From Granulicella sp. (GTDB taxonomy: Bacteria > Acidobacteriota > Terriglobia > Terriglobales > Acidobacteriaceae), in contig DAIDKF010000018.1 of the NCBI GenBank assembly GCA_027450185.1, forward strand, positions 1 to 42,194: a DNA stretch of 42,194 nucleotides, given 5' to 3'. Within the stretch, counting starts at the first letter, position 1; every line of letters begins with the position of its first letter. Below, piece by piece: positions 9,347-14,060 of the stretch. The notes under the pieces are model-generated. The model saw only the letters and a program-made list of their open reading frames with translations, did no database searches and was not told the origin of the DNA. The position numbers were made by a program, and so were the translations under genes.

Positions 9347-9640
9347 CTATGCGCTGTCGGCGCAGGACCCGCCGGCAATGGAAGGAATGAGCATGATCTC
9401 GTCGCCGTCTTCGAACTGGTGCGCGTCGCCGCCGAGAAAGCGGATGTCTTCGTCGTTGACATAGACGTTGACGAAGCGGCGCAGCTTGCCGTTTTCATCC
9501 TTCACATTTTTGGCGAGCGCAGGGAACTTTACGTCGAACTCTGCGAGCAGGCCGGGGAGATCTCCGGCCTGGGAATCGAACGACTTCTGGCCGTCGGTGT
9601 GGCGGGCCAGTGCGGTGGGGAGAATGACCTTCACGCTCAA
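9347..9640 (-). CDS. MoaD/ThiS-family sulfur carrier with a tail after Gly-Gly
   Basis: A 97-aa ubiquitin-fold protein of the MoaD/ThiS/CysO type. Proteins of this family carry sulfur as a C-terminal Gly-Gly thiocarboxylate. Family signs are the central RFVNVYVNDEDIRFL strand region and the C-terminal IPSIAGG. The diglycine is not terminal: six residues (SCADSA) follow, so a protease would have to expose it. The start is a TTG at 9640 overlapping the TGA of the upstream gene (TTGA), with GGAGG 6 bases before it, so translation is coupled to the threonine-synthase-like gene. No MoaE, ThiG or MoeB neighbour is present, which argues against a molybdopterin or thiamine role. I infer that it supplies sulfur to the neighbouring PLP enzyme, as CysO does for CysM. 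Confidence 0.85.
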   Translation of the reverse strand: MSVKVILPTALARHTDGQKSFDSQAGDLPGLLAEFDVKFPALAKNVKDENGKLRRFVNVYVNDEDIRFLGGDAHQFEDGDEIMLIPSIAGGSCADSA

Positions 9641-10932
9641 CGTGCACCTCCTGCCAGGGTCAGATCTGCGTCTGCGCCGATGAGTTGGCCATCGACTACG
9701 CGGATATACTCGTCGAAGGCGGTGAGTTTTGGCTTGACGGCACGTTCCGCAGCAAAGCAGCCTTCAAGTGCGTCGGTGGTCTTGAGGCCGTTGCCGGTTA
9801 TGCAGACGACAGTCAGATCGTCGCGCCCGATTCGGCCTTGCGAGTAGAGCCTCGCGGTAACGGCGGTGGTGACTCCACCGGCAGTCTCGGTAAAGATGCC
9901 CTCATCCTCCGCAAGTTCCTGGATGCCCGAGACAAGTTCAACGTCGGAGACATCCTCGGCCCAGCCACCAGTCTCCTGAATCATCTTCGCGGCGGCAGGA
10001 CCATCGGCGGGATTGCCAATGGCAAGCGAGCGGGCGATAGTATTGGGCCGTTGCGGCTCGATGTAGTCCAAACCATTCTTCACGGCGTGCGCGATCGGAG
10101 AACATCCCGTTGCCTGCGCTCCGAAGAAGCGGACCTCTTTGGGCTCGACCAGCCCGAGCGCGATGAGGTCCTTGAATGCCTTGCGTATCTTGCGGATGAG
10201 CGAGCCGCCGGCCATAGGGCAAACGATGTTATCGGGTAGCCGCCAACCGAGTTGTTCGGCAATCTCGTAGCCAACCGTCTTCGAGCCCTCGGCGTAGTAG
10301 GGACGGAGGTTCACGTTGACGAAGCCCCAGTTGTACTCGTCAGCAATCAACGTGCAAAGGCGGTTGACGTGGTCGTAGTTACCATCAATGCGCACGAGTC
10401 GCGCACCATAGACTTGAGTGTTGAGAACCTTCGCGGCTTCGAGATCGGCGGGCACCAGAATGCAGGCCTTGAGACCGAGGCGGGCTGCCTGCGCTGCTGT
10501 TGAGTTTGCCAGGTTCCCTGTAGAAGAGCAGCCAACCGTCGTAAATCCGAAGGCCTGCGCGTTAGCCAGCGCCACAGAGACGACGCGATCTTTGAAACTG
10601 AGCGTCGGGAAGCAGACCGCATCGTTCTTCACATAGAGATTGTCCGCTCCAATTCGCTTGCCAAGGTTCTTCGCGCGCACCAACGGCGTAAAACCTACGG
10701 GAAGGTCGGGCTGGAAACCCTCAGGAATGGGCAGAAGTTCTTTGTAGCGCCAGATGCTGGCCGGCCCGGCGGTCACGGATTCGCGAGTAAAGCGCCCGCG
10801 AACGGACTCCAGATCGTATTGGACCTCGAGCGGCGCAAGACAATCCGGACAGGCCGAGAGAGGTCGGTTGCCGTAGCTCTTGCCGCATTCGTTGCAGCAA
10901 AGTTCATATTTCGTACAGGAAGACGCCATCAT
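9637..10932 (-). CDS. thrC: Threonine-synthase-like PLP enzyme (possible homocysteine synthase)
   Basis: A 431-aa fold-type-II PLP enzyme of the threonine synthase family. The N-terminal zinc-ribbon-like part has CNEC and CPDC. The PLP lysine is in LSFKDR, the phosphate-binding loop is CSSTGNLANS, and a glycine-rich PLP-phosphate loop (CPMAGGS) follows. The classical reaction is O-phosphohomoserine to threonine. I start at the ATG at 10932 (ATGATG, CGGAG just upstream); the frame continues upstream but that stretch is the riboswitch leader. Two facts suggest another job. A SAM riboswitch precedes the gene, and it is co-translated with a sulfur carrier. Beta/gamma replacement with carrier-bound sulfur would give homocysteine. 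From this window alone, ordinary threonine synthase remains possible. Confidence 0.85.
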   Translation of the reverse strand: MMASSCTKYELCCNECGKSYGNRPLSACPDCLAPLEVQYDLESVRGRFTRESVTAGPASIWRYKELLPIPEGFQPDLPVGFTPLVRAKNLGKRIGADNLYVKNDAVCFPTLSFKDRVVSVALANAQAFGFTTVGCSSTGNLANSTAAQAARLGLKACILVPADLEAAKVLNTQVYGARLVRIDGNYDHVNRLCTLIADEYNWGFVNVNLRPYYAEGSKTVGYEIAEQLGWRLPDNIVCPMAGGSLIRKIRKAFKDLIALGLVEPKEVRFFGAQATGCSPIAHAVKNGLDYIEPQRPNTIARSLAIGNPADGPAAAKMIQETGGWAEDVSDVELVSGIQELAEDEGIFTETAGGVTTAVTARLYSQGRIGRDDLTVVCITGNGLKTTDALEGCFAAERAVKPKLTAFDEYIRVVDGQLIGADADLTLAGGAR

Positions 10933-10950
10933 TCGACTCCGGTAGTCGAA
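10932..10950 (-). promoter_or_regulatory. Hairpin covering the thrC-like gene's ribosome-binding site
   Basis: On the minus strand TTCGACT and AGTCGAA form a perfect 7-bp stem around a 5-base loop (ACCGG). The stem ends at the A of the start codon. The Shine-Dalgarno CGGAG lies in the loop and the 3' arm, so the folded form should block initiation. It is the plausible expression platform of the upstream riboswitch. Confidence 0.55.
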
Positions 10951-11044
10951 GGGTTCTGGTCCTGAGAGCCGCTCTCTGTTTGTCTGGATGAAGCTAGGGA
11001 GAGTAAGTGAAATACAGCCGCGGATACGGATCTGCTTCCACCGA

Positions 11045-11158
11045 ATCTCATGTGCCCTGCGGCTTGCGCCTATCCAGGAGAGAGTTGACACCGGTACTAT
11101 GTTCTGTCCGGTTGTCGTGGCGTCACAGGGCTCGTCCCTCAACCACTCTTCATGAAAT
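11045..11158 (-). promoter_or_regulatory. SAM riboswitch (S-box, SAM-I clan)
   Basis: The minus-strand RNA folds like an S-box aptamer. P1 pairs AUUUCAUG (11158-11151) with CAUGAGAU (11052-11045), 8 bp. Inside are the S-box landmarks: AAGAG, GUGG/CCAC (P2), GAGGGACGAGCCC with its short GGG/CCC stem, GACAACC, a P3 of ACCGG/CCGGU, the GGUGUCAACUC joining segment, and a P4 (UCCUG/CAGGG) capped by a GCAA tetraloop. No terminator with a U-run follows before the start codon 113 bases downstream, so control is probably translational. S-boxes normally control methionine and SAM genes. I could not score this against the Rfam SAM models, so the exact subclass is open. Confidence 0.85.
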
Positions 11159-11330: not shown

Positions 11331-12056
11331 ATGCCAACAAACAATGACTTCCAGGCCGAAGACACTGCGACAGCTCATGCGTCGCCAGCAGTCGAGTTGA
11401 ATCGCGTGTCGCGGCTATACGGTAGCTTCGTCGCCCTGCGTGAGATCTCGGTGACGCTGGCTGCGGGCTCCAGCGTGGTGATGCTGGGCGAAAATGGTGC
11501 GGGAAAATCGACGCTGCTGAAAGTGATTGCCGGCCTCGCGTCGCCAAGCTACGGTACTGTCTCGGTGTTTGGCGAAAACTCCAAGGATCAACGCGGACGC
11601 GTCGCCTACATGAGCCACTCAACGATGCTCTATGACGAGTTGACGGGACTGGAAAACCTGACCTATTTTGGCAGTCTGCATACTGATGGCGCCAGTCGCA
11701 GTGCGCTTCGGCAACGCGCCGCTGAGGCATTGCACGAGGTTGGACTCGAGCCTTCAAACACGCGCCGCGTGGGAGAGTACTCGCAGGGGATGCGGCAACG
11801 CGCGTCGCTGGCCCGCGTGCTACTGTCGGAGCCGGATCTACTGTTGCTCGATGAGCCGTTCTCGAACCTCGACGTTGGCTCGGCGCAGAGCATGATTAAG
11901 CGGCTGCTGGATTATGTAACGCGGCCCTCAAACAGCGGTCTGGCGCGCACCCTGCTGCTCACCACTCACCAGTTTGAACTCGCGCAGCCACTCGCGCAGA
12001 GCACGCTGACACTGTGCGGAGGCCGCCTCGTGTCGCTGATTGAGACGGCGGCGTAA
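11331..12056 (+). CDS. ccmA: Heme exporter ATP-binding protein CcmA
   Basis: ABC ATPase of the CcmAB(CD) heme-handling complex for c-type cytochrome maturation; 241 aa. It shows Walker A GENGAGKST, signature YSQGMRQR, Walker B LLLLDEPFSNLD and the switch histidine in LLTTHQ. AAAGG precedes the ATG. The assignment to CcmA rather than a generic ABC ATPase rests on the neighbours ccmB, ccmC and ccmD in the same operon. The stop TAA shares its last A with the ATG of the next gene. Confidence 0.9.
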   Translation: MPTNNDFQAEDTATAHASPAVELNRVSRLYGSFVALREISVTLAAGSSVVMLGENGAGKSTLLKVIAGLASPSYGTVSVFGENSKDQRGRVAYMSHSTMLYDELTGLENLTYFGSLHTDGASRSALRQRAAEALHEVGLEPSNTRRVGEYSQGMRQRASLARVLLSEPDLLLLDEPFSNLDVGSAQSMIKRLLDYVTRPSNSGLARTLLLTTHQFELAQPLAQSTLTLCGGRLVSLIETAA

Positions 12057-12577
12057 TGAGTTCTATGGCCAAGTTGAGTCACCCCGGCAAGACAAATGCA
12101 GTGCGGCAACTCGACGCCCTTGGAATCATGTACGAGCTGCGATCGTACGTGGTCGACCCAGACGATCTCACCGCGATCACCGTCGCACGCAAGATCAACC
12201 TGCCTGCTGAGCAGGTCTTCAAGACCCTCGTTACGCGTACCCACGAGGGCGAGCATGTGTTTGCGGTGGTGCCCGGAGATGTCGAACTCGATCTGAAGAA
12301 ACTGGCTGCGGTCGCCGACACGCGCAAGGTTGAACTGGCTGCCCTGAAGGACGTCGAACCACTCACGGGCTATGTACGCGGCGGGGTGACGGTGCTCGCA
12401 GCGAAGAAGCTCTTCCCTGCCTTTGCCGACGAAACGATTGAGCTGTTTGATGTTGTCTCGGTCTCAGCCGGGCAGCGCGGACTGCAGATCGTACTTGCGC
12501 CGGCAGATTATCTGCGGGCGACAAACGCCATGCTAGCGGACCTGACAAAATCTCCCGCCCCTGGAGGACATGCATGA
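12056..12577 (+). CDS. ybaK: Cys-tRNA(Pro) deacylase, YbaK/EbsC family
   Basis: A 173-aa trans-editing enzyme that hydrolyses cysteine mischarged on tRNA(Pro) in the cytosol. Family signs are KTLVTR in the N-terminal half, GYVRGGVTVLAAKK (normally GYIRGGCSPIGMKK) and the C-terminal SAGQRGLQIVLAPADYL. It sits inside the ccm operon, overlapping ccmA by 1 base and ccmB by 4 bases (ATGA), so the three are translated together. No mechanistic link to heme export is known to me; the position may reflect only operon building. Confidence 0.88.
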   Translation: MSSMAKLSHPGKTNAVRQLDALGIMYELRSYVVDPDDLTAITVARKINLPAEQVFKTLVTRTHEGEHVFAVVPGDVELDLKKLAAVADTRKVELAALKDVEPLTGYVRGGVTVLAAKKLFPAFADETIELFDVVSVSAGQRGLQIVLAPADYLRATNAMLADLTKSPAPGGHA

Positions 12578-13254
12578 ACTACACACAACAAGTCCTCACC
12601 CATCTACGCAAGGATCTGCGCCTGGAGTGGCGTACCAAGGACTCGATCAACGGAATGCTGTTCTTCGCGTTGCTGGTGGTCGTAGTGCTGGCGATGGCCT
12701 TCGATCCGGCGTCGTACCCGACGATGACGCGGCAGATTAGCGGTGGCCTGCTGTGGGTAGCGCTTCTCTTCGCCGCCATGACCGCGCTGAATCAGTCCTG
12801 GGCGCGCGAGACCAGCAACAACGTGCTCGACGCGCACAGGCTCTCTGCCGCGCCGGCATCTGCATTGTTCGTTGGCAAGGCACTGGCGAACTTTCTCTTC
12901 GTGACGGCAGTCGAGGTGGTGCTCGCTCCCATCTTTACGGTCTTCTACAACCTTCAGCCGCTGGGCCAGACGTGGAAGCTGCTCATTATTTTGCCGCTGG
13001 GCACGTGGGCGCTGGTAGTCAATGGGACCTTCTTCGCCGCGCTCAGCCTGCGCTCGCGCAACCGCGAGACACTGCTGCCACTGGTTCTGCTGCCTATCTC
13101 CATGCCAGCGTTGCTGGCCATGATCCAGGCCACGACGGCGGTGCTGACCGGTGAGTTTGAACCGACATTATGGATCAAAGTACTGGTCGCCTATGTGATT
13201 GTCTTCACAACGGCGTGCGTCCTGTTGTTCCAGACTATTCTTAGTGCGGATTAG
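12574..13254 (+). CDS. ccmB: Heme exporter membrane subunit CcmB
   Basis: A 226-aa integral membrane protein with about six hydrophobic segments, starting with a basic amphipathic stretch (LRKDLRLEWRTKDSINGM) typical of CcmB. It is the membrane partner of CcmA in releasing holo-CcmE. CTGGAGGA lies 5 bases before the ATG, and the start overlaps the ybaK stop (ATGA). Its TAG shares its last base with the GTG of ccmC. Confidence 0.9.
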   Translation: MNYTQQVLTHLRKDLRLEWRTKDSINGMLFFALLVVVVLAMAFDPASYPTMTRQISGGLLWVALLFAAMTALNQSWARETSNNVLDAHRLSAAPASALFVGKALANFLFVTAVEVVLAPIFTVFYNLQPLGQTWKLLIILPLGTWALVVNGTFFAALSLRSRNRETLLPLVLLPISMPALLAMIQATTAVLTGEFEPTLWIKVLVAYVIVFTTACVLLFQTILSAD

Positions 13255-14060
13255 TGATGACCAGACGTTTCGCGCAGTCAAACGAAGAGCTAAAATCATC
13301 GATGGTGACTAACATTCGAAAATCTTCTGGAACGATGCCGAAATGGGCTCAAGCCTGGTTTATCCTGACCCTCCTCGTCATGGCCTACGGCTTTTATGCG
13401 GCGATGGCCGCACCGCGCGAGGCGACGATGGGTAACCTATATCGCGTATTCTTCTATCACCTGCCGCATACGATCCTCAGCTTTGTGTTCCCGTATCTCA
13501 ACTGCGGCGCGTCTTTTCTGTACCTCTTCTGGCGCAATCGTAATGTCGAGCGCGCCGCCGCTGCGGACGCCTTCGCCCTTGCCGCGGCTGAGGTGACGGT
13601 TCTCTACGCCACCATCGGTCTTGCGACAGGAATGCTCTGGGGACGCGCGGCGTGGGGTATCTGGTGGGCCTGGGACGCGCGCATGACCACCTACCTGCTG
13701 CTCTGGCTGCTCTACGTCAGCTACCTGCTGGTGCGGCGGCTCTCCGCGAGCGGCCAGACAGCCGTCGTCTCAGCCGTACTGGCTATCTTCGCCGCCATTG
13801 ACGTTCCCATCTGCTTTATGTCGATCCGCTGGTGGCGCACGCAGCATCCTTCGGCCGTCTTTGGTGGCGGATCGAACTCCGGTATCGACCCCAGCATGGT
13901 CCCCGCAGTGCTGTGGAACATGGTCGCGTGGGCGATGTGGGGAGCCTTCCTTATCGGCATGCGCTATGCCATCGAGCGCCGCCACCAGCGCCAATCCAAC
14001 GCGCATGCACTCGGCTTTCTCGGCGATGAAACCGGCAACAACTTGCAGGAGATTCGATGA
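13254..14060 (+). CDS. ccmC: Cytochrome c biogenesis protein CcmC
   Basis: Inner-membrane protein that presents heme to CcmE. The tryptophan-rich signature WGIWWAWDARMT is present, flanked by the two conserved histidines expected to bind heme (in FFYHLPH and RTQHP). There are six hydrophobic helices in about 268 aa. The start is GTG at 13254 or the adjacent ATG at 13257. The N-terminus carries about 25 extra polar residues before the first membrane segment. The 3' end overlaps ccmD by ATGA. Confidence 0.93.
   Translation: MMTRRFAQSNEELKSSMVTNIRKSSGTMPKWAQAWFILTLLVMAYGFYAAMAAPREATMGNLYRVFFYHLPHTILSFVFPYLNCGASFLYLFWRNRNVERAAAADAFALAAAEVTVLYATIGLATGMLWGRAAWGIWWAWDARMTTYLLLWLLYVSYLLVRRLSASGQTAVVSAVLAIFAAIDVPICFMSIRWWRTQHPSAVFGGGSNSGIDPSMVPAVLWNMVAWAMWGAFLIGMRYAIERRHQRQSNAHALGFLGDETGNNLQEIR

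Follow-up and report, generated by a model that had tools for sequence, protein, structure and literature searches.

A threonine synthase-family enzyme and a sulfur carrier behind SAM riboswitches: a candidate homocysteine synthase in Terriglobia

Introduction

The synthesis of cysteine and of homocysteine from a protein thiocarboxylate is already known, and two such pathways are the closest described counterparts of the locus reported here. This locus lies on a 42,194-nucleotide stretch of DNA from Granulicella sp. (positions 1 to 42,194 of contig DAIDKF010000018.1, assembly GCA_027450185.1; hereafter the window), and comprises an S-adenosylmethionine (SAM) riboswitch, a gene for a pyridoxal phosphate (PLP) enzyme of the threonine synthase family (thrC1, encoding ThrC1), and a gene for a sulfur carrier. 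In Mycobacterium tuberculosis, the CysM-CysO-Mec+ system makes cysteine by a carrier-based mechanism. Our system resembles it in its fold-type-II PLP enzyme, its proposed phosphorylated amino acid substrate, its CysO-like carrier with a Gly-Gly (GG) motif, and a JAMM protease, but differs in that the enzyme belongs to the threonine synthase family, the operons point to O-phosphohomoserine (OPH) and homocysteine, most carriers bear a C-terminal tail, and SAM riboswitches are present. In Wolinella succinogenes, methionine is reportedly made from a protein thiocarboxylate by HcyS, HcyF and HcyD together with MetY, in a pathway said to have been described by Krishnamoorthy and Begley in 2011. Shared with that pathway are a carrier with a C-terminal extension, an E1 enzyme, a JAMM-type protease and, in our proposal, homocysteine as the product. 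There, however, a MetY-type enzyme (PF01053) acts on O-acetylhomoserine made by MetX, whereas here that place is taken by a threonine synthase-family enzyme, and 94 of the 99 surveyed genomes with ThrC1 yielded no MetX (the remaining five include the window's own assembly).

A further precedent is archaeal cysteate synthase (TIGR03844), which is described as having evolved from threonine synthase and is a relative of that enzyme that combines a sulfur nucleophile with a phosphorylated amino acid; ThrC1 itself scores far below the cut-off of this model (40.8 against 324.9 bits). We found no description of a threonine synthase-family homocysteine synthase acting on OPH and a thiocarboxylate in the open-access literature, subscription journals lying mostly outside the search, and we judge that the new element is the use of such an enzyme, on OPH, in this role. 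The comparisons below leave little doubt in our minds that ThrC1 has a role in methionine synthesis. They also make it quite probable that ThrC1 and its carrier act as a SAM-repressed homocysteine synthase, converting OPH and the carrier thiocarboxylate to homocysteine. More broadly, it appears likely that much of the class makes methionine via such an enzyme, whose gene stands, depending on the family, behind one or the other of two unrelated classes of SAM riboswitch, and that several lineages use MetX-MetY instead.

Results

Architecture and conservation of the locus

A preliminary description of the window had proposed, from the sequence alone, that an S-box aptamer precedes a threonine synthase-like gene that overlaps the gene of a MoaD/ThiS/CysO-type carrier, and this arrangement was borne out. 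The sole Rfam match above the gathering score in the window is a SAM-I (S-box) riboswitch aptamer (RF00162) at 11158-11045 on the minus strand, which scores 66.4 bits (gathering cut-off 44.4, E 1.9e-13) over the full length of the model (positions 1-108), and is the only RF00162 match in the incomplete assembly (2.17 Mb, 54.4% complete). On the same strand, thrC1 runs from an ATG at 10929 to a stop at 9637 and encodes 430 residues, with four invariant cysteines in the N-terminal segment. An open reading frame (ORF) opening at 11142 passes through the aptamer; the ATG at 10929 is most likely the start of thrC1. The carrier gene (9640-9347, minus strand, 97 residues) opens with a TTG that overlaps the thrC1 stop codon as TTGA, and its ribosome-binding site AGGAGG (9652-9647, minus strand) lies six bases ahead of this TTG, within the 3′ end of thrC1. 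The carrier matches Pfam ThiS and ends in PSIAGG followed by the six-residue tail SCADSA. Its closest solved relative is 3dwg chain C (E 2e-20; entry name '9.5 kDa culture filtrate antigen cfp10A'), which we take to be M. tuberculosis CysO.

Conservation was assessed in a survey of 151 genomes of the class, in which the window's genome is G000. Matches at least 55% identical to the window's enzyme were called ThrC1, giving at least 99 genomes and at least 100 copies among the matches listed, a few of them fragments. All counts out of 99 below refer to these genomes, which are related and not independent. RF00162 is present in 78 of the 151 genomes, and a SAM-I aptamer lies 88-269 nt ahead of the matched part of ThrC1, on the same strand, in 65 of 99. 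A carrier follows ThrC1 within 1.5 kb in at least 61 of 99, again among the matches listed. In a second set of 58 ThrC1 loci of relatives, including Chloroflexi and Nitrospirales genomes, the carrier adjoins ThrC1 in 56, the exceptions being a locus on a truncated contig (L112) and one from Chloroflexi (L108). SAM-I precedes ThrC1 in all 11 of these loci that were scanned by cmscan, among them those of Granulicella mallensis, G. rosea, G. paludicola, Edaphobacter aggregans, Bryocella elongata and Silvibacterium bohemicum. The riboswitch-thrC-carrier cluster, whose conservation the preliminary description had proposed as a check, is therefore conserved across the class, and a chance pairing of aptamer and gene can be excluded because of this conservation. 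Relatives of ThrC1 at 50-53% identity occur in one Chloroflexi and one Nitrospirales genome, at loci that gave no Rfam SAM match above cut-off. Two observations stand apart: a ThrC1 at 79% identity comes from a record titled Rhodanobacteraceae (L110), probably wrongly named or a mixed metagenome bin, and a Lysine riboswitch lies on the opposite strand about 4 kb from another ThrC1 gene (L118:9052-9276).

ThrC1 is distinct from the threonine synthase of the same genomes

The window's genome holds a second thrC, for which the preliminary description had proposed to look. This canonical copy (C4:46864-48129) is 46% identical to the Thermus thermophilus enzyme over aligned columns, and retains the active-site residues that are altered in ThrC1. 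A separate threonine synthase is present in 94 of the 99 genomes, 80 having a canonical copy (at least 43% identical to the C4:46864-48129 copy, some partial) and 14 others having the E. coli type (PF14821), so ThrC1 is probably not the threonine synthase of these genomes. A thrB-like gene adjoins the canonical copy in 5 of 19 loci fetched with short flanks. We also note a third threonine synthase-like family (L139, L140, L145, L152 and others) with the active site S/T-A-G-N-A in place of STGNT, which possibly serves as threonine synthase in genomes such as G030, G110 and G130, which yielded neither a canonical nor an E. coli-type copy.

Compared with class II threonine synthases (T. thermophilus 1uim, Bacillus subtilis 6cgq and the second genomic copy), ThrC1 shares the fold, the PLP lysine K61, K116 and N154 (kept in 115 of 115 ThrC1 rows, 106 of them distinct) and T317 (in 114), but differs by T88L, S155N, N157R, R160Y and Q164S, by a remodelled loop 187-191, by forming its own clade, and by SAM regulation. 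In T. thermophilus numbering, positions 88/155/157/160/164 read LNRYS in every one of the 115 rows, but TSNRQ both in all 19 canonical rows and in the three solved enzymes used for comparison; the canonical active-site set is thus absent from ThrC1. Positions such as 88, 155 and 160 presumably lie near the substrate phosphate in threonine synthase. In a maximum-likelihood tree, 22 ThrC1 rows group in one clade (support 100/100) that is separate from the 23 canonical rows. A long-branch warning from the tree program concerned a first set of second ThrC copies, which, L003 apart, proved to be other threonine synthase-like paralogues (canonical rows were fetched separately); the ThrC1 clade is unaffected.

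ThrC1 rarely co-occurs with MetX or MetA

A search for separate homocysteine routes had been another suggested check. MetX was scored from TIGR01392 matches above 340 bits, present in 37 genomes, with a fragment in G125 added, and MetA as PF04204; the 340-bit threshold was used because no genome reached the model's cut-off of 500, nor did any of 14 control genomes. MetX and MetA are nearly always missing where ThrC1 is present: five genomes have ThrC1 together with MetX or MetA, 94 have ThrC1 only, 35 have MetX or MetA only, and 17 have neither (Fisher 3e-16, relatedness uncorrected), with MetA accompanying ThrC1 in no genome. Counted by genus, the same four classes hold 5, 38, 20 and 9 (7e-7), and within family f1 alone, where the swap is visible, 1, 22, 5 and 1 (3e-4). 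Left out of MetX were near-full-length matches of 137-163 bits in 13 further genomes (12 with ThrC1), as well as shorter ones below 125 bits; three sampled from the 13 (G056, G068 and G066) had their top score on PRK07581, a family of hypothetical proteins. If all 13 are taken as MetX, the counts become 17, 82, 34 and 18, still an anticorrelation (Fisher 6e-9). In three ThrC1 genomes (G023, G038 and G059), neither a PF01053 enzyme nor MetX or MetA was found by these thresholds.

In five genomes without ThrC1, MetX and MetA (G014, G044, G086, G118 and G134; L037-L041), SAM-I lies upstream of a PF01053 gene, with another ORF between the two in G134. The one PF01053 protein tested from these five scores best on the cystathionine gamma-synthase model (503.7, cut-off 513). 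The SAM sensor thus tends to mark the homocysteine step, ThrC1 holding that place elsewhere. Exceptions are G089 (L043), G109 (L044:1627-3364), G113 (L045) and G130 (L042), in which SAM-I aptamers of 60-66 bits precede ORFs without an obvious connection to methionine (AAA_5 in G109, and no Pfam match for the tested ORFs of G089 and G130). As a separate observation, the SAM-I-linked PF01053 enzyme of the five genomes is possibly OPH-using, like that of plants.

Operon partners and carriers

Partner genes were assigned by family tests of single representatives (thrB 255.8, cut-off 168; cysteine desulfurase 423.7, cut-off 377; aspartate-semialdehyde dehydrogenase, Asd, 456.5, cut-off 301; aspartokinase 334.5, cut-off 209), and genes at other loci were labelled by BLAST to these representatives. 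The ThiF protein falls under the listed cut-offs yet clearly belongs to the MoeB/ThiF family. Among 12 loci fetched from family f4, a homoserine kinase-like gene stands behind thrC1 in nine (L177, L178, L179, L181, L182, L187, L188, L194 and L195), with the carrier between in two; L180 and L183 have no such gene behind thrC1, and in L189 the carrier is at the contig end. Three f6 loci have thrC1-thrB (L047, L192 and L193), L125 has the order thrC1-carrier-thrB, and those g16 and g59 loci that were inspected have the carrier behind thrC1 and no recognisable thrB. Behind thrC1 in f8 come a ThiF-type E1 gene and genes for a cysteine desulfurase and/or Asd; a carrier is present as well in L123, L186 and L191. 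ThiF-type E1 genes also adjoin ThrC1 in the Nitrospirales and Chloroflexi loci. The carrier is found behind a SAM-I aptamer of its own in G051, G114 and G138, in the first and last of which this separate aptamer precedes carrier and aspartokinase.

All but two of 82 rows (L084 and L085) retain the GG of the carrier; of these 80, 15 end there and 65 go on with a tail, so most carriers would need a protease. Across relatives, the tails range from none to more than 20 residues. JAMM genes occur in 147 of 151 genomes, in the window's genome at G000:C19:32383-32715, on a contig other than that of thrC1. A second carrier lies within 500 nt after the JAMM gene in 80 of 80 typed loci, which had been picked as same-contig rows, and this JAMM-linked carrier is likelier to be the cysteine system. 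In G088, SAM-I stands ahead of SufS, ThiF-family and CysK genes. SAM-I was likewise seen before cysteine desulfurase-family genes at L050:2353-6117, L051:371-2919, L175:857-2250 and L176:966-4451; behind these lie a ThiF-family gene (L050), CysK-like genes (L050, L051 and L176) and a hexapeptide-transferase gene (L176).

Two SAM sensors and the direction of control

Across the 99 genomes, ThrC1 is preceded by SAM-I in 65, by a SAM-II-like motif in 27 and by neither in one (the leader in G143), while six are not settled: G007 and G059 are cut by contig ends, and G053, G072, G140 and G114 have partial ThrC1 matches, with the SAM-I matches of G114 on contigs other than that of its partial match. 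A SAM-I match is missing altogether from 31 ThrC1 genomes, of which 25 carry the SAM-II-like motif before ThrC1 (8 from a motif-pattern scan of loci and 17 of 20 from leaders fetched separately). In G022 and G098, the motif precedes ThrC1, whereas SAM-I precedes a desulfurase-family gene. Leaders without SAM-I revealed a strongly conserved motif followed by terminator-like hairpins, as at L127:6538-6732, L128:8420-8593, L131:4418-4603 and L119:7639-7710, and the motif is in tandem in five loci (L127, L128, L131, L156 and L158). Its pattern gave 17 matches in 1.24 Mb of loci, all in ThrC1 leaders, the loci having been picked around such genes. RF00521 (SAM-II) was reported in 6 of 6 and 16 of 18 leader sources (absent in L159 and L171), and RF01726 at two. 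Over 26 distinct sequences, 99.4% of cells are paired in the P1 stem and 97.3% in the P2 pseudoknot; covariation is modest (15 of 500 shuffles as high), and a single pair shows changes in both partners (a level reached in 71 of 500 shuffles). These leaders are like known SAM-I (RF00162) and SAM-II (RF00521, RF01726) riboswitches in having conserved aptamer cores, here ahead of ThrC1, but differ in their target, thrC1 and the carrier, and in that the SAM-II-like form falls under the Rfam cut-off.

Terminator-like hairpins lie ahead of 35 of 112 ThrC1 starts (105 distinct leaders), in both SAM-I and SAM-II-like leaders, according to our own scan, which was run without a shuffle control. In the window, the leader that would serve as expression platform (11044-10930, minus strand, from aptamer to start codon) has no terminator-like site on the minus strand. 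A hairpin at 10950-10932 encloses the ribosome-binding site GGAG (10940-10937), seven bases before the ATG, and has look-alikes in relatives. At least three of the four ribosome-site bases are paired in 21 of 34 leaders from close relatives and the window, only two of the four being paired in the window itself in that fold. The 135-nt fold after the aptamer is no better than shuffles (z 0.19), so a ribosome-site hairpin mechanism finds little support in this leader. We infer from the leaders as a group that SAM represses the thrC1 operon. A SAM-activated switch, the main alternative of the preliminary description, is less likely because several families have terminator-like hairpins in the stretch from aptamer to gene.

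Around thrC1 in the window itself, we saw no gene for an E1, a desulfurase, a kinase or a JAMM protease; the tested flanking genes encode Lon, ClpX, trigger factor, cytochrome c maturation proteins and others. At 11331-14060 of the window lie an ABC-transporter ATPase gene, a gene with an aminoacyl-tRNA editing domain (PF04073), a CcmB gene and then a cytochrome c assembly gene.

Discussion

A homocysteine synthase is the best-supported reading of ThrC1 and its carrier because the operon partners would supply OPH and a carrier thiocarboxylate, and because this coincides with SAM sensors and the near-exclusion of MetX. The scheme that we propose draws on what the sequences show, namely riboswitches, operon structure, hairpins that resemble terminators, patterns of co-occurrence, altered active-site residues and the tail of the carrier; its substrates, product, chemistry, protease step and switch direction are proposals. 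Homoserine kinase would make OPH, a JAMM protease would trim the carrier to ...GG where a tail is present, and a ThiF-type E1 would adenylate the carrier, with sulfur from a cysteine desulfurase giving the C-terminal thiocarboxylate. ThrC1 would eliminate phosphate from OPH on PLP, like threonine synthase, and the thiocarboxylate would then add at the gamma carbon, as opposed to water at the beta carbon in threonine synthase. Such a reaction is chemically plausible, as threonine synthase and the gamma-replacing enzymes have a vinylglycine-type intermediate in common. The JAMM protease would cut the carrier-homocysteine adduct to release homocysteine for methionine synthase, and plentiful SAM would turn the operon off through the riboswitch. 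The same reaction had been suggested in the preliminary description, and the second thrC, the conserved cluster and the near-exclusion of MetX and MetA lend it support as the probable function, with a caveat from the window's own assembly.

That caveat is one of several observations that weigh against this reading. The preliminary description had said that its proposal would fail if the genome held no other threonine synthase together with a full separate homocysteine synthase set; the other threonine synthase is there, and so is a MetY-MetX pair, at G000:C1:16285-18716 (L054:8286-10717), with MetY at 729.7 bits on PRK08248 (cut-off 726) and MetX at 366 bits on PRK00175 (cut-off 331). The DNA that best matches the metY part comes from other genera (78% in G103, 75% in G009), and no MetX turned up in G083, a near-complete genome of the window's genus, so either the pair may have been acquired locally or its contig may be misplaced. 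Matches between this stretch and G083 are scattered, the longest only 69% identical. ThrC1 and MetX also occur together in G017, G025, G028 and G104, and in G028 and G104 a SAM-I aptamer, thrC1, a PF01053 gene and metX stand in a row on one strand. Within family f4 alone (2, 23, 1 and 3 genomes in the same four classes), the anticorrelation is not significant (p 0.37). A PF01053 gene is present in 96 of 99 ThrC1 genomes and could encode a transsulfuration enzyme acting on OPH. Five genomes (G002, G048, G081, G114 and G144) yielded no threonine synthase besides ThrC1. ThrC1 itself scores above the curated cut-off of TIGR00260 (272.2 against 167.1 bits) and matches Pfam PALP. The first structure matches of its AlphaFold model (mean predicted local distance difference test score, pLDDT, of 80) are threonine synthases, at a root-mean-square deviation of about 12 Å, so the model's domain arrangement should not be read closely. 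The JAMM genes discriminate little because they are near-universal, and at the SAM-II-like motif RF00521 scores 21.4-34.6 bits, below its cut-off of 36. The model of the threonine-operon leader, RF00506, likewise scores below its own cut-off of 55 (27.6-35.4) in some of them, which we take as a chance match because the terminator stem is matched on either strand. Lastly, in several families no carrier adjoins ThrC1, so dependence on the carrier is less well supported than the methionine role, and the identity of the sulfur donor is correspondingly less secure.

This last point leaves room for an OPH-using homocysteine synthase that takes free sulfide, or that joins cysteine to give cystathionine, with the carrier serving another sulfur transfer under the same control. 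A thrB-like gene with no carrier adjoins thrC1 in 7 of the 12 f4 loci and in the three f6 loci, as such an enzyme would allow, but 56 of the 58 loci in the second set have a carrier next to ThrC1, the carrier has SAM-I aptamers of its own in three genomes, and ThiF-type E1 genes stand beside ThrC1 in the f8, Nitrospirales and Chloroflexi loci. We therefore regard this explanation as unlikely. Should ThrC1 instead be an ordinary threonine synthase, tuned by SAM through repression or activation to balance threonine against methionine, its passing of TIGR00260 and its best solved matches would be accounted for. We rejected a plain threonine synthase under SAM control as the main explanation because 94 of the 99 genomes have a separate one, and the changed signature residues, the anticorrelation with MetX, the E1 and desulfurase neighbours, and the terminator-like hairpins after the aptamers in several families all speak against it too. 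Plant threonine synthase, which is SAM-activated, has a long N-terminal regulatory extension, and ThrC1 lacks an extension of that kind. An ordinary threonine synthase is accordingly, in our estimate, very improbable.

It is very unlikely, in turn, that ThrC1 makes cysteine or another thiol amino acid, whether from O-phosphoserine in the manner of CysM-CysO or, with sulfur added to the beta carbon, as 3-methylcysteine. The CysO-like carrier is what such an enzyme would use, and SAM-I does precede desulfurase-family genes, with CysK-like genes behind them in G088, G144 and G098 (in G022, a desulfurase-family gene). However, the partners of ThrC1 belong to homoserine metabolism (thrB, asd and aspartokinase), ThrC1 alternates with MetX, and the second carrier, linked to JAMM in all 80 typed loci, is the likelier cysteine system.

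If ThrC1 and its carrier do form a homocysteine synthase, this would fill a gap in the methionine synthesis of a large group of soil bacteria, and the annotation of many 'threonine synthases' would be corrected. Two unrelated SAM sensors sit ahead of this one gene, and the SAM-II-like aptamer escapes the cut-off of the current Rfam model. The pair of enzymes, one adding water at the beta carbon and the other sulfur at the gamma carbon, would offer a matched system for studies of reaction choice in PLP enzymes, and in these bacteria threonine and methionine would part at OPH via two sister enzymes distinguished by a few residues of the active site.

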